From positions 13,243,206 to 13,307,205 of the forward strand of contig OZ038453.1 of assembly GCA_964036195.1 (NCBI GenBank): a DNA stretch of 64,000 nt, read 5' to 3'. The position numbers and the translations under genes were made by a program. A model generated the notes under the pieces. That model was not told where the DNA came from. It worked only from the letters and a program-made list of their open reading frames with translations, and searched no databases. This stretch comes from Sphaerolaimus hirsutus (taxonomy: Eukaryota > Nematoda > Chromadorea > Monhysterida > Sphaerolaimidae). This document shows, one piece after another, positions 31,198-59,667 of the stretch. Numbering within the stretch: the first letter of the stretch is position 1; each line of letters begins with the position of its first letter.

Positions 31198-34100
31198 ATG
31201 GAAGACGGGCAAACGTCAGAATATTTGAGAGTGCCAAAACGCGACGAACATTCCACTGTTATTGCAGCGGAAAATTTGCATTTTCCCAGTCACGCTGATA
31301 AAAGTGAAATACTACTATTTGATACATCAGGGGACACTCCCAGACAGTGTAAAAAGCCCTGTAAAATGCCAAATGTCATGCAAAGTGTCAAAAGTCATGG
31401 AAAATGCCCTGTAAAATGGCAACCGAGTTGCCATTCTGGGGGCAGTCCGAAGCCCTGTAAAGTGTAAAGTAAAGTGTCAAATGTAAAGTCAAATGCAAAG
31501 TAAATTGTCAATGAAAACAAAAAAGAAAAGATTTTATTACTGAACTTTACATGACAATTGACAGTTTACTTTGCATTTGACTTTACATTTGACATTTTAC
31601 TTTACACTTTACAGGGCTTGGGACTGCCACCTGGATGGCATTTTCCATGACTTTTGACAGTTTGCATGACATTTGACATTTTACAGGGGTTTTTACACTG
31701 TCTGGGAGTGCCCCCAGAAAGTTGCCAATGCCATGAAATGAGGTTTTCACATGGTGATTGTGAAAACAAAACTAATTTGAACTCATCCACTGAAGAGACA
31801 AAATGTGATGTTGAGTTTCCAGACAAATCGCCGGTGTGCTGTTGCGACCAAAAATCTAATGTATATGACGGGAAATTGATAGAAACGTTTGTCCCATATT
31901 TATTACTGTATTTCTTCTAATAGAAGAGCGCACTTCGTCAAATTATTTACCTGCCCTTCTATTTTTTCACCATGTTCTCGGCCAATATTTCTTCAAGTTC
32001 TGCTATGGTTTTTCAAGGTGTTACATCACAGTTTCACAGACAATGCATAGAATGATGATTTATAGAGTTCATTCAATGTTTGATCTTAAAATAGCACCGA
32101 ATCAATAGACCAAAGCCACCAAATAACAATGTCCGCCGTAGCTTTCTACCTTTTTATGCATTTGGCACAGCTCCGGGAGTTTTTGACTTTTCTATCAGAG
32201 ACTGTCCCTCGATTTATTTCGTCTTCATGGTCAAAAAAGTCAAAAAGTGTACCTTCTATTGAGGACGCCCTTCTACTGGAGACCTGCCCTTCAATTAGAA
32301 GAAATACGGCATGTTTTTATACGTTCTTACTAAATATATCTACATACCTAACCCTCCATTCGTTCAATCCCCACACATTTTCCAGCGAGGATATCAATTC
32401 TCCCGCCACAAATGATTACATTCGTGCATGTGATCCCGATCCAGTATCATGGACGTGTAAAAATGCGAGCTTCATGAATAATGGAAATGTCGGAAAAAGC
32501 TTGTGCTCGAGACATGCACATGCGTCCGGCCACAAACAGATTATCGAGGCTGGTTTCCCATATTTTTCTCTTTTTTCCAAGCTTAATGAGATTCTGTTGG
32601 CATAGTATCCATTTTGGTTCGGGTTCGATAAGCCCTCTGTGTTTAGTTTACTAACATTTGTTTTTTGTTTTGTTTTTTCATAGTACCGGCCTTCACAGTT
32701 CGCACGAAATAATACAACACCTTTTAATACACAAAAACAGATTGCAGATTTCAATTCGATCACAAAGAAACATTTATATCATATACACCCTAAATCCTCG
32801 AATAAATCCCCAGGGTAGTTTTTTCCGCAGACTTTACACTGGGGAGTTGTTTGAGAGGGTGGGGGGGGGGGGGTATTTTCCCTCACTTGTCTACAGGGAA
32901 AGTTATTGAATAGGGGAGTTTTTAGAGGGGAGACTTACTCGAGGATATACCGTATGGTAAATGAACACATCTTTTCAAGTGATAACAGCATGAACCACTG
33001 TTAAACATCCTGCGTCGATTATAAGAAGATAATGAGAAGCATGATTTTACAACCTTTTGTTCACTTATACAAAGCTATAAAACACACACATAAACAGTCA
33101 TTTAAGTGCATTCTGTACAAATTGCACCTGTTAATACTCTTTTGGTTTAGGCTATACTCTGTGTGCCATGCCTCTGCACTGCATTGAATGTGGTATATCA
33201 TTGTGTACCATTGCAGCACATATCCAGGATAATGACCACATTGTGAACATGAATATTGGCCAACTACCATAAATTCTCTAATAATACGACAGTCGTATTA
33301 TTTTTTTCAGCAAACCTTTTGGAGAGTGTCGCGTTATTCTCACACAACGTGCCCAAACCTGTCTCACTATTGGAGATGTCGTATTATTGGAACACTGTTG
33401 CCAAATTAGAAAATTTACGGTAGGTACCTCTATTTCTTCTAATAGAAGAGCTCCATTCTATTTTTTCTTTTCAGCTCCATTTTTTCATCAACTTTTTTAC
33501 CTACTCTTCTATTGGAGGTGCTGTTCTATTAGAGGCTGCCATTCTATTTTTTCACCAATCTTTTTCACAGATTTTTCATCTGAAAATGGTATTTTTAATG
33601 GAACATGAGCAACATTTTAATATCAGAGTATCAATTTAAACAAAACACAATGTGCAAAAAAAAACTAAATCATAGTTCTAACACATCAGATGTAAAGCGG
33701 GAATTAGAGCTCAGCGTCGATTCGACGTGAAATGATGACGTGAAATGTCGTCGTGAAATTAATCACACAAGTGTGGATCATGCTACGGGTCTACAATTTT
33801 CTAAGGATAATATATGAATCAATACCTTAATCGTGTCCAATACTGAGTGTTATCAGCCACAACTAGAGCGAATTGAAAAATTCAATTTTTATCTTTTCAC
33901 GTCATCATTTTACGTCAGGGAACAACTTGACATTTCACGTCAGACTGCTGCTTGCAATAGTCTGACGTGAAATGTCAAGTTGTTCCCTGACACTGTGACG
34001 TGAAATGATGATGACGTGAAAAGATAAAAATTGAATTTTTCAATTCGCTCTAGTTGTGGCTGATAACACTCAGTATTGGACACAATTAAGGTATTGATTC

Positions 34101-55197: not shown

Positions 55198-58100
55198 TCA
55201 AACCTTATAAGGGGTGCCAACTATAGCCTTAGCATCGGCCCCCCAAAAAACTCCATACACAAATGGATTCAAAAGGGCATTGCACACAATCAGCGAATTA
55301 AGCCCGTCGAATTGTTGAGCGCTATCGGCATACCATTCGTGACCGAATAGAAGTTTACACGTTTGCAGCACGTTGTACGGTAGAAAGCATAGAATGTAGA
55401 GTACGGTCAGTTTTACCGCGGTGCACAGGGCTCGATCGAATGGCCTGTAATTTGAGGGTGACATTTTAGGCGGGAAATGTGGGAGGTTAGGTTTTTATTA
55501 TCCAATTTTACCTTTTTGAGGGGTTGAAGCCACTGCTTCCAGTTTTGGATAGGCTCTCGCTGCTTCCGTTTGGGCTGTTTGCTCTGCGAGGGAATTTTTT
55601 ATCAATTAAAACCTATCACAGAGGGGGGAGTTGTTCAAGTGTGGGTAATTACTCAAAGGAGGGATTTTTTCGTCACTCTTCCAACAGGGGGGAATTATTC
55701 AAGGGGGGTTTATTCGAGGATATGCGGTATTTAGTTTCTTTCAAGTTAAAATGATAGATAGTGTCAAAATGTGTCAGCTTGCATTAGGAATTTCTTAAAA
55801 TCAACTTAAATCACACTTTTATGAGTGACAAACCTGCAATAACACATGGACAGAATGCCTTTAGAATCCTGATTTTTCTCAGGAAAATCACTTTCAGAAT
55901 CATCACCCTTATCTTTCACTGCCATCTTCAAAATCATTGCTTCAATATTGTTTGATTTCACACCGGCACGAACATTACCATTCCTCTTTGATTTGATATT
56001 TTCCTTTCCTTTTTTGTCACTTTGCCCATCAGATTTCTGACTCTTGTCATTGTCATTGTCATTTCCATTGTCATTAGTGTTGTCAGAATCGGAATCATGT
56101 TCTTGTACAGGTGTGATCAATCTGGTGACATTTTGGCTGCAGAATAGTTCAAGGGGTCATTTTATATTTACCATGAAAATGTGAAGGGGGTTATTTGAGG
56201 GTGCTTTTTCGATAAAAATTTTTTCGATTGAATTCTGAGCATCAATACAAAGAGTCAAAGTTGAAATGAACCATCCAAGAAACATTTTTTCGCACATAAT
56301 CCACCTGCATTCCAATGGCAATTCCAATTATTGATTATTTCACTACCTAGGATGGGAAGATATTTGAGAGATGGTAAATTTGGGGTGGGGTAGGTTGATT
56401 AGGGGCCTTCCTAATAAAATCTGGGCCAGACGTGCCTTTCGCATGCTCTACACATGGCAAATGGATGAGTTATTTGGGGGATGTATTCAAGCAAGAATAT
56501 ACCTAGTAAAGCAAAAAAAGCACCTGTCATCATTGTCACTCTTTGGATCGCATGTATTCTCGCTGAAAGTCAACTTTTTCGCCGAATTTCCTTTTTTATT
56601 AGCACTAGCACCGCTGTTCGGAGGATTTTTGCCATCGCACCCCTTTTGTACGGAAAGATTCTGCTGCCATCTACTGAACGAAAACGCCTTTCTGGGGGCA
56701 CTCCCAGACCCTGTAAAAGACCCTGTAAAGTGTCAAAGACCCTGTAAAATGTCATGTGTCAGGTAAAAGATCCTGTAAAACGTCATGTGTCATGTAAAAG
56801 ACCCTGTAAAGTGTCAAATGTCATGTAAAAGACCCAGTAAAGTGTCATGTGGATCCAAATCTTATTTTATCGTATCCAAATCTTTCGTTTTTACACAAGA
56901 TTTGGATGCAAAAACATAAGATATGGATATGATAATATAAGATGTGGATCCACATGACACTTTACAGGGTCTTTTACATGATATTTGACACTTTGTAGTG
57001 TCTTTTACATGCACATGACGTTTTACAGGATCTTTGACACTTTACAGGGTCTTTTACAGGGTTTGGGAGTGGCACCTGGTCGCGTGAAGCAAGTACGCGT
57101 AGCAGTAGATTATGCATACTGGAAAAGTGGAATTATTTTTGTTAACATGAAAAAAGTTGATGGATCAAAAAACAATGACCGTTAAAATTACCTAGAGGCA
57201 GCCAAAACAATATTATCAGATGGACTGCATTGTAAATAAACGATTCTCTGTGATCGGCCATTGCGCTTGCCGTGTCACTTTCATTTCTAACGTAATCATT
57301 AACATCCCATTTTGTGACACATTGCCTGTTAGAAAAAATTTAGAAAGTTGAAAAATTTACAAGAACCATCGCCTAAAATACTACCGTATTTCCTCGAAAT
57401 ACCCCCAGGTTTTTTTTTGTCAGAGTGGTAATTTTGAGGGTGGTTAATCGAGGAAGGGGGTATTTCAAGGGGGGTGGTATTTCGAGGGTGGGGTATTTCA
57501 AGGGAGGTTATTCGAGGAAATAAAGTATATCAACCTCATGGTATCTCACCTGAAAAAACTCTTCTTACGTCCGCCTCTATTCTCATTTATGCTCGTCAAC
57601 CGTTTAAAATGTTTACTCAGCTCCCTTTCAACCACCGCGGCGCTCGCATGAAACCCATTTAGGGCATCAAAGCCATCAAACTCGGTAGAATAACTGTGAT
57701 CCCTCGGTTGGAAATTGTCGAAAATCGTGTATTCGGTTAGTGGAGTTTCTTTTTGATCGCAAATCGGTATGGCGATTGTTTGCCAGGGGGCACTCCCAGA
57801 CCCTGTAAAATGCCCTGTGAAATGTCAAATGCCGTGCCTGTAAAGTGGCAAAAGTCATGGAAAATGCCCTGGAAATGGCAAACGTACGTTTGCCATTTTG
57901 CAGGGCATTTTCAGTGACTTTTGACGCTTTGAATGACATTTGCCATTTTACAGGACATTTTACAGGGTCTGGGACTGACACCAGATTAGCAATTGCGGAA
58001 TGCTGCAGATTGTGGCCGCGACGTAGGCGATTATCACTATTATCTGGTAGGAGTTTGATACTCTATTAGTCGTGGAATTGAAGTGTAGCGTTAGTGTAAC

Positions 58101-59667
58101 ATTCCTTGTTACCGTATATCATCGAATAATTCCCGAGCGGCGCTACCTTTTTATCACAGTTTTTTTACCGTGAAATTATTCAACCCATGCAATTCAGGGA
58201 TTTGACAGTTCGACAACAACAAAAACAAGGTATCCATCGATGGGTTTTTTCCAATTTTTGCATCTCTTCCAGGGGGGGTTGTTCAAGGGGGGGGGGTTTC
58301 CTCACCTAACGAACAGGGGGAGTTATTCAAGTAAATTTTCATGTTCAGTATCAAATCAATCAACATGGTTCACGTTCACGAATCCCGCTAACTTTCGTAT
58401 ATTTCATCTGTGTACTGGAGGCATATTGTGGCCTCAACGAAAACATCCTATTCAGAGCAATGCACACGATCAAGTTAGAGCTTAGATAAAATGAAAACGC
58501 ATCCGTGAACTGCATCAATTTGCACAGGAAATCCCCTCCCTTGTATTCGTAAGTAATCAGCCAGAGTACCTGTGAAAATTTACATTGTTAGTATTTTACC
58601 ATATTTTCTCAAAATACCCCAGGGGTTTTTTTCAGAGTGAAAATTTTGAGGGGGTATTTCGAGGGGGTCTATTCAAGTGGGTATTAAGGATAGGCTTATA
58701 CATACCCAAAACTGATACTAAACATCCATCTAAACTAAGGATACATTCAGATAAACCAATGTGGATGGCTATACCAACTAGGTAATCTATTTGTTTTTTT
58801 TTGGGATGAGAATGAAATGTTTGACATGTGTGATGGCTTGAACAATAATGATTTGATCAGCCCCATAACCTAGGAAAAACTTCAAATGTCAGACATTTCA
58901 TAATCATGAACACTAAATCATACTTTTTTCATGTTGTCACAGTTTGTTGTGGGTTGTCGCCGAAATTTGTTCTATGCAGCCTCTTTCACAAGGCTCCTAG
59001 ACCAAATTTCTTCAACAACAGGAAAAAGGTATGATCTAGTGTGCATGATTTCAAAATATTTGGGGTTTATGTATTTATTAGGCTGTGGGCTGATCAAATC
59101 ACTATTGATCAATCATATCAGATGTTTCATTCTCAGCCCAGAAATGTTCAAAAAATATCGAGCATTTTGAGGGGGTGTTTTTTAGCTCCAAAAGACCTGG
59201 GGGAAATACGATTTCAAGGAAATACAGTATGTACAAAATATATATTTTGTTTGTTCTTTATCACCCAATTTTGCCAAAAAAAATCAAAATCAAATCTAAC
59301 ACACCTCAGATACTGCATAAGCAGTTGTTATCAATAGGTCGCTGATGTTCAAATGAGTCTGCAGAAAATGCAACTGAGCCCTGCAGCCGCCGGCGATCGC
59401 CCTGGGTCTGTTTTGCCTGAGTATTAAAAGTTACCTATGCTATTTTCATTAAGGCATTAAGGAATTATTCAAAAAAGGGGGGGGATTATTCAAGCAAATA
59501 CGTTACTCTAAGTTACTGTCTCACACTCACCTGAGATGTTCAAAGGCTGATAAATTCACAATCAAACTAGCAATAGCCAATACACTCAGGTATGCAATTT
59601 TCACCAAATCGCCAGTCAAGTGTGATGGTATCGAGGGTAGACAAGGTATTTCTGACATCGCCCCCAT
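55198..59667 (-). CDS. Class A (rhodopsin-like) G-protein-coupled receptor, 562 aa
   Basis: Minus-strand exons: 59667-59531, 59416-59305, 58569-58393, 58043-57550 (interrupted by the MITE 57787-57981), 57325-57192, 57118-57076, 56691-56524, 56136-55834, 55583-55512, 55444-55198. Without the MITE and one TSD they sum to 1,689 nt with all phases matching. TM1 has VLAIASLIVNLSAFEHLR. TM2 has LNISDLL. TM3 has the conserved Cys (GDFLCKLM) and FYLSSNLIVCIALNR, with LNR replacing DRY. TM4 ends SIPQLLIW. TM5 has IYNAVHLI...LFWLPL. TM6 has LYILCFLPYNV and TM7 NALLNPFVYG (NPxxY-type). Loop 3 is very long and Ser/Asp/Asn/Lys-rich. The TM3 pattern resembles GnRH/AKH/vasopressin-type peptide receptors (inference from memory). 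A plasma-membrane peptide receptor is the likely role. The MITE in exon 4 would truncate it unless spliced. Confidence 0.85.
55606..55730. mobile_element. Short TCGAATAA/G-run element in GPCR intron
   Basis: gggggagttgttcaagtgtg, ggggaattattcaagggggg and ttattcgaggatatgcggta mark a deleted copy of the TCGAATAA-type elements in the intron between exons 56136-55834 and 55583-55512. Confidence 0.5.
56695..57075 (-). mobile_element. CAG-targeting MITE that forms an exact GT-AG intron in the GPCR gene
   Basis: TSD: plus-strand CTG at 56692-56694 and 57076-57078, i.e. CAG on the gene strand. On the gene strand the element begins GTGCCACTCCC and ends GGGAGTGCCCC, followed by the duplicated CAG. Intron 57075-56692 therefore starts GTGCCA and ends CCCCCAG. 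Splicing joins acc-ag/a-aag and restores the codons of loop 3. A further hairpin (tggatccaaatctt / aagatgtggatcca) is nested at about 56850-56955. Confidence 0.85.
57385..57530. mobile_element. CCGTATTTCCTCG-type element in GPCR intron
   Basis: TA-CCGTATTTCCTCGAAATA to TTCGAGGAAATAAAGTA, with a shortened G-run interior, between exons 58043-57550 and 57325-57192. Confidence 0.6.
57787..57981 (-). mobile_element. CAG/CTG-targeting MITE inside the GPCR TM4/loop 2 coding exon
   Basis: Plus-strand CAG at 57784-57786 and 57982-57984 (CTG on the gene strand). On the gene strand it starts GTGTCAGTCCC and ends GGGAGTGCCCC. The arms are rich in ctgtaaaa and ttttacag. The insertion splits codons of a continuous frame (atc-tgg/caa). 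At 198 nt including one TSD it keeps phase but brings an early TAA. An in-frame splice (donor tggt/gtcagt, acceptor ttttacag/gg) would remove it and add six codons. Confidence 0.85.
58110..58338. mobile_element. CCGTATATCATCGAATAA-type element in GPCR intron
   Basis: Left taccgtatatcatcgaataa and a right part ggggagttattcaagtaaat flank g-run blocks, in the intron between exons 58569-58393 and 58043-57550. Confidence 0.5.
58598..59230. mobile_element. TTTTCTCAAAATACCCC-type element in GPCR intron
   Basis: Left ccatattttctcaaaatacc and right gatttcaaggaaatacagta appear to be the two decayed ends of a single CCGTATTTCCTCG-type element spanning most of the 0.7-kb intron. Interior frames are not supported as exons. 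Confidence 0.4.

Follow-up and report, generated by a model that had tools for sequence, protein, structure and literature searches.

A fold-back transposable element as a putative intron of a receptor gene, and its family, in the nematode Sphaerolaimus hirsutus

The receptor gene and the element within its exon

The window, namely the whole 64,000-nucleotide stretch of the Sphaerolaimus hirsutus genome that was analysed (GCA_964036195.1, contig OZ038453.1, positions 13,243,206 to 13,307,205), carries on its minus strand a vasopressin/GnRH-type receptor gene, one exon of which is interrupted by the segment 57075-56692. The upstream half of this split exon (57118-57076) encodes TM5 (VCIIYCYAYLLHATR) in an open frame of receptor-type protein and terminates in CACGCGACCAG, and the downstream half (56524..56691), starting with AAAGGCG, encodes KAFSFSRWQQN... 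of intracellular loop 3. The outer edges of the split exon are also splice-like, with the acceptor CTTTTCCAG ahead of 57118 and the donor ACAG|GTGC at 56524/56523. An ordinary phase-1 intron in TM5 (57119..57191, WLPL|V) separates it from the preceding exon (57192..57325, QCVTKWDV...IILFWLPL), and the other exons of the gene likewise show open frames and splice-like edges. In a structure search, the joined receptor protein matched the vasopressin V1a, oxytocin, and GnRH receptors (best E 3e-9, mainly over TM2 to TM4), and a Pfam scan of the 70-residue joined exon by itself gave no match.

The interrupting segment was revealed to consist of a MITE-like element of 381 bp (56695..57075, minus strand; 5' GTGCCACTCCC ... 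GGGAGTGCCCC 3') and a CAG triplet (56692..56694), the latter being the right copy of a target site whose left copy is the CAG at 57078-57076, the last three bases of the upstream exon half. The 384-bp unit is thus a fold-back MITE plus a 3-bp CAG duplication, with CAG on either side. As a predicted intron it would be of the GT-AG type (first bases GTGCCACTCCC, last bases GGGAGTGCCCCCAG), in which the left CAG would occupy donor positions -3 to -1, the element would give the donor GT and a run of C before the acceptor, and the right CAG would be the 3' splice acceptor. When the flanks were joined without 57075-56692, the coding sequence read CIIYCYAYLLHATR^KAFSFSRWQQN (HATR^KAF) in phase 2 with zero residues gained or lost, the junction codons with one CAG being ACC AG^A AAG GCG (T R K A), and stops were present in all three frames within the element. 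These results confirmed the claim of the first-pass annotation that removal of this segment restores the loop-3 codons, and its assignment of the element's GT as the putative donor and the duplicated CAG as the putative acceptor was borne out as sequence anatomy. With regard to the termini that it had proposed, the left end and the existence of a family held good, but the right end had to be corrected to GGGAGTGCCCC, which is GGGGCACTCCC read inward, and as inverted repeats the two ends are therefore non-identical.

The element is complementary to itself, with 65-nt arms at 92% and 105-nt arms at 89% in a reverse-complement self-match, and nearly its entire length falls into one predicted hairpin; the predicted RNA folding energy was -241 kcal/mol versus -84.1 +/- 5.5 kcal/mol in 100 shuffled sequences (z -28). 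The donor GTGCCA is weak past CAG|GTG, and the region before the acceptor is G-rich apart from CCCCC.

A second copy of the family, 195 bp in length, lies in the same gene and on the same strand (57787..57981, GTGTCAGTCCC...GGGAGTGCCCC) after the TM4 codons SIPQLLIW. It is flanked by CTG (57984-57982 and 57786-57784), and its removal with one CTG gave SIPQLLIW^QTIAI. Its end is without a clean AG, since the CTG edge provides none and therefore no acceptor. We infer that splicing from its GT to the GGGAG within the terminus would leave TGCCCCCTG, namely nine in-frame bases; a fixed in-frame addition appears in the published account of the Aureococcus introner (PMC9860276). Given the CTG duplication of this copy and its want of a clean acceptor, the receptor allele carrying it could be damaged.

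Ends, polarity, and target site of the family

Further copies elsewhere in the genome, which had been anticipated from the window element, were abundant. In the 348-Mb genome, the left-end 17-mer GTGCCACTCCCAGACCC occurred 1509 times versus 0 for the reversed control, the GGGG end GGGGCACTCCCAGACCC was found at 1366 places versus 0 for its control, and CAGGTGNCACTCCC occurred 1423 times versus 4 control matches. A similarity search with the window element, in which 40 of 2767 first-look candidates of the 348-Mb genome were scored, yielded at least 95 matches, many of them both strands of one place, and the identity to the window copy was 72 to 88% over about 250 bp among the matches listed; given this range, a very recent origin of the family is not required.

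The polarity of the element was evaluated on C1 (0-23 Mb), where 100 listed GTG ends and 61 GGGG ends gave 12 exact convergent pairs facing each other within 600 bp. All 12 combined a GTG end with a GGGG end, and therefore the element is polar, with one donor-like end and the other end reading CCCC ahead of the duplication.

For the target site, 50 of the first 51 listed left-end places were sampled, from which L069, L070, L071, L073, and six places with poor right ends were removed to leave 40 copies. Their flanks were CAG/CAG in 17, CTG/CTG in eight, CTG/CAG in five, CAG/CTG in one, and others in nine, so that CAG or CTG stood at both sides in 31 copies; an exact duplication was seen in 25 of the 40, a count mildly inflated by a slight preference of the right-end finder for equal duplications. 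Around the 31 two-sided CWG sites, C preceded in 18 and G followed in 16, and on the basis of these flank counts the target is (C)CWG(G). The sampled copies had a median length of 185 bp (range 101-414) and a mean identity of the inverted-repeat ends of 0.81 over 20 bp, and the right end was GGGGC in 21 of the 40, the left end GTGCC being the selection criterion of the sample.

Genome-wide, CAG-flanked ends outnumbered CTG-flanked ends (1423 versus 1140, binomial p 2.5e-8). Although such an excess would follow if spliceable insertions had a better chance of survival, it is small (1.25-fold), and the flank GC content did not differ between CAG/CAG copies (0.484) and CTG/CTG copies (0.494); most family copies therefore need not be introns. 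Flank GC, tried as a marker of genic position, was rejected since it did not separate these two classes, and so was open-frame length across the junctions, by which sense was not separable from antisense. Elsewhere in the window, family-like termini were observed at 31328-31341, 31436-31449, 31620-31633, and 31704-31717, probably representing two overlapping or nested copies between 31328 and 31717.

Unbroken paralogs and copies in other genes

Two paralogs of the receptor, about 39% identical at the element site, were compared there. The C15 paralog (L094) reads ALVAMCYSHVLQTAYTVSRL with an unbroken frame, in an exon that was spotted by eye and is absent from the genome-search matches, and the C6 paralog (L093) reads FWLPLIILFYCYLSIVRDIMTALRRH, its genome-search match stopping three residues short of the site and the frame then being open. 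The C15 paralog (L091) is also unbroken where the second copy lies in the window gene (SLPQLYVW^MLVQ), and here the genome-search match crosses the site. A TM5 donor of phase 1 occurs at one and the same codon in the window gene and the C15 paralog (L092), and because of this shared codon and phase the TM5 intron (57119..57191) is probably older than the window element.

Several side observations were made on these genes. In the C6 paralog (L093, about positions 1-75, minus orientation), a family-like terminus, CCAG GGGCCACTCCCGGGCCC, lies just downstream of the TM5/loop-3 coding stretch. The intron 57326-57549 (minus strand) of the window gene divides FFR|QCVT, at which the C15 paralog (L092) reads VFRQCVT unbroken, and may be a gain in the window gene or a loss in the paralog. 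Several introns of the receptor gene, near 58300, 57400-57520, 56140-56200, and 55640-55730, contain a recurring motif similar to CCTCGAATAACC / TTGAATAATTCCCCCC, which seems to belong to a different intronic repeat family.

Copies in other genes were assessed with Pfam. Sixty-one copies, 50 from the left-end list and 11 from a CAG-conditioned list, were reduced to 51 by removing four duplicates (L021, L069, L070, and L073) and six copies with poor right ends, and junction-spanning peptides of at least 35 residues, with at least eight on each side, were searched on both strands at E 0.01 or better. Matches were assigned to copies through equal E-values in a peptide set chosen by eye, five of whose ten peptides had no Pfam match, and L088 was assigned by a separate test. 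In the spliceable sense, six of the 51 copies split a Pfam domain or bordered on one and left an intact coding sequence on removal, compared with one match in antisense, which is a small contrast (two-sided p 0.125). The 25 CAG/CAG copies gave four sense matches from 46 peptides and no antisense match from 44, the 18 mixed-flank copies two sense matches from 26 peptides and one antisense match from 21, and the eight CTG/CTG copies no match on either strand from 28 peptides. The antisense match (RYYR-CCHC, 5.6e-4) was not reproduced by the L052 peptide alone.

Three of the six copies came from the 41 of the unconditioned list. They lie in a chondroitin synthase (L059, flanks CTG/CAG; CHGN, 2.7e-13), a carnitine acyltransferase (L086; Carn_acyltransf, 2e-16), and a lipase (L088; Abhydro_lipase, 1.3e-12 at the exact junction), and in each the match spans the junction well; for L088, it was a 1-nt shift of the junction giving CAG/CAG that improved the match from 2e-6 to 1.3e-12. 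The other three came from the ten of the CAG-conditioned list, and lie in an EF-hand protein (L016; EF-hand, 5e-7, with the junction spanned well in EF-hand_7), a cadherin (L022; 7e-4, with a match that begins just three residues ahead of the junction), and a PAN-domain protein (L032; 7e-4, the junction spanned well); the cadherin, PAN, and EF-hand_7 matches fall under the Pfam curated cut-offs. The phases of the copies were mixed (0, 1, and 2), and read-through met stops in all seven copies examined (L059, L086, L016, L022, L032, L060, and L045). Solved-structure searches with L060 and L045 returned nothing useful. Extrapolated to the 1509 copies with exact ends, 3 of 41 would correspond to some 110, with a wide error, and the share of exonic copies may be higher than the Pfam count, because Pfam detects only part of the coding sequence in short windows.

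Relation to known elements, proposed mechanism, and meaning

A survey of 3325 genomes recorded introners in 175, and animals were represented by just two groups, copepods being named (PMC9860276). Oikopleura dioica has also been listed with introners, and one has been proposed for a gene of a bdelloid rotifer (PMC10597677). The window family agrees with these published animal cases in that intron gain in an animal is ascribed to introners. In the Chrysochromulina introner, the 5' splice site comes from the element and the 3' site from the duplication (Gozashti 2022, PMC9860276). The window family resembles it as a short non-autonomous element in many copies that would leave the mRNA length unchanged, with the donor from the element and the acceptor from the duplication; in contrast to that introner, which is described with a 4 bp duplication and without inverted repeats, it has a 3-bp CWG duplication, inverted repeats, and an animal host, and its left CAG copy would also contribute the exonic bases of the donor.

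The NuwaI group of PHIS (PIF/Harbinger-like) elements, reported in animals only, makes a 5'-CWG-3' duplication and usually has termini that start with GGG (Han 2015, PMC4482050). The CWG duplication agrees with this group, and the GGG at the start of the GGGGCACTCCC end may do so as well, whereas the other terminus of the window family is GTG, and the excerpted account of NuwaI does not describe it as intron-forming (PMC4482050). Since no transposase has been linked to the window family, we call it NuwaI-like only. DDE_Tnp_4 gave 163 matches in the genome, and the one copy read (L090), whose layout resembles transposase exons with introns between them, had no family terminus at up to five mismatches. 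One DDE_Tnp_4 match lies 1.6 kb before the window (C4:13241003-13241635), and many of the matches have an equal score and four TGA within a 633-bp span. A facing left-end pair 3.9 kb apart (L089) was rejected as an autonomous partner, as further family ends inside it indicated separate small copies beside other repeats, and a facing GGGG-end pair 2.07 kb apart was found at C1:1201757-1203822.

On the basis of the element itself, its CWG duplication, left GT, CAG edges, restored frame, polarity, unbroken paralogs, and recurrence in six other genes, all of which are read from genomic sequence, we consider it very probable that the window element is an introner, namely a non-autonomous fold-back MITE that inserted at a coding CAG and would have become a spliceosomal intron at once. 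A CWG-cutting transposase would insert the element with a 3-bp duplication, whereby the left CAG and the terminal GT would form the donor CAG|GT and the right CAG copy would serve as the acceptor; the hairpin could draw the two splice sites together, and excision by the spliceosome would render the insertion nearly silent. This would operate only in the orientation with the target CAG on the coding strand and the GT end upstream. In the opposite orientation the coding strand reads CTG and so offers no acceptor, and such copies would be unspliceable, except where a mutation turns the right CTG into CAG or a different AG serves as the acceptor.

The main alternative, to which we assign a low probability, is that the transposon sits unspliced in the exon and disrupts the receptor gene or allele, its intron-like fit being a by-product of a CAG target and a GT terminus. 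The weak donor context is in line with such a disruption, as is the second copy in the same gene with its CTG duplication and no usable edge acceptor. However, the other exons keep open frames and splice-like edges, and there are six further copies, inside or at conserved domains, whose removal recovers the frame, and it is unlikely that all of these would be dead alleles.

An older intron at the same codon, replaced or filled by the transposon, appears less probable still. The human GNRHR gene has introns near the TM5/loop-3 region, and such positions in related receptor genes, together with the apparently shared TM5 intron 43 bp upstream, lend this idea some plausibility; nevertheless, the element and one 3-bp duplication make up the entire intron with no older residue, and the coding sequence is continuous there in two paralogs. 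That the repeat end merely resembles splice sites by chance, between flanks that are not truly coding, is hardly credible: the joined exon of 70 residues had no Pfam match and the structure search covered mainly TM2 to TM4, but matches to the joined gene include receptors for vasopressin (V1a), oxytocin, and GnRH as well as paralogs across the genome, and the same design recurs in other genes.

Returning to the introner reading, we also put forward a wider and clearly more tentative scenario, somewhat short of an even chance, in which a CWG-targeting, NuwaI-like MITE spread as an introner on a large scale through an animal genome. Its once-alike GGG termini would have become polar (GTG as donor, CCCC before the acceptor), so that in one orientation the element would arrive as a finished intron, and CTG copies may mature when a single T in the right duplication changes to A, or splice at GGGAG with the addition of three codons, as would be needed for the second copy in the receptor gene. 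The excess of CTG/CAG over CAG/CTG flanks (5/40 versus 1/40), with the CTG/CAG copy L059 dividing a chondroitin synthase domain, possibly reflects such one-base acceptor maturation after insertion.

The first-pass annotation had regarded the locus as a clear animal case of intron gain by a DNA transposon. The proposed mechanism is most likely right, judging from the sequence features above, and the family most likely represents a new introner family in an animal; it is not the first animal case, because animal introners are already in print (PMC9860276, PMC10597677). A literature search, judged mostly by titles, found no title on this family, which is no proof of absence. In Fritillaria borealis, intron gain has reportedly been linked to mobile elements; that case would be alike in being a mobile-element intron gain in an animal, and unlike in that its introns are said to be mostly non-canonical, compared with the predicted GT-AG type here.

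The origin of new introns is an old question, and animals have been reported to be nearly without introners (PMC9860276). In the S. hirsutus genome, the exact termini of the family number well over a thousand, empty sites exist in paralogs of the receptor gene, and the target rule, CWG, is simple; the built-in orientation test, in which CAG copies would be spliceable and CTG copies not, would make the rate at which an insertion becomes a working intron measurable. The family would also allow the study of selection on the wrong orientation and of the origin of an acceptor by one mutation. The kind of element is already known, and what would be new is an introner family in an animal with an unusually clean and testable anatomy; the window element, together with sister copies placed likewise in other genes, would illustrate how new introns can be made.
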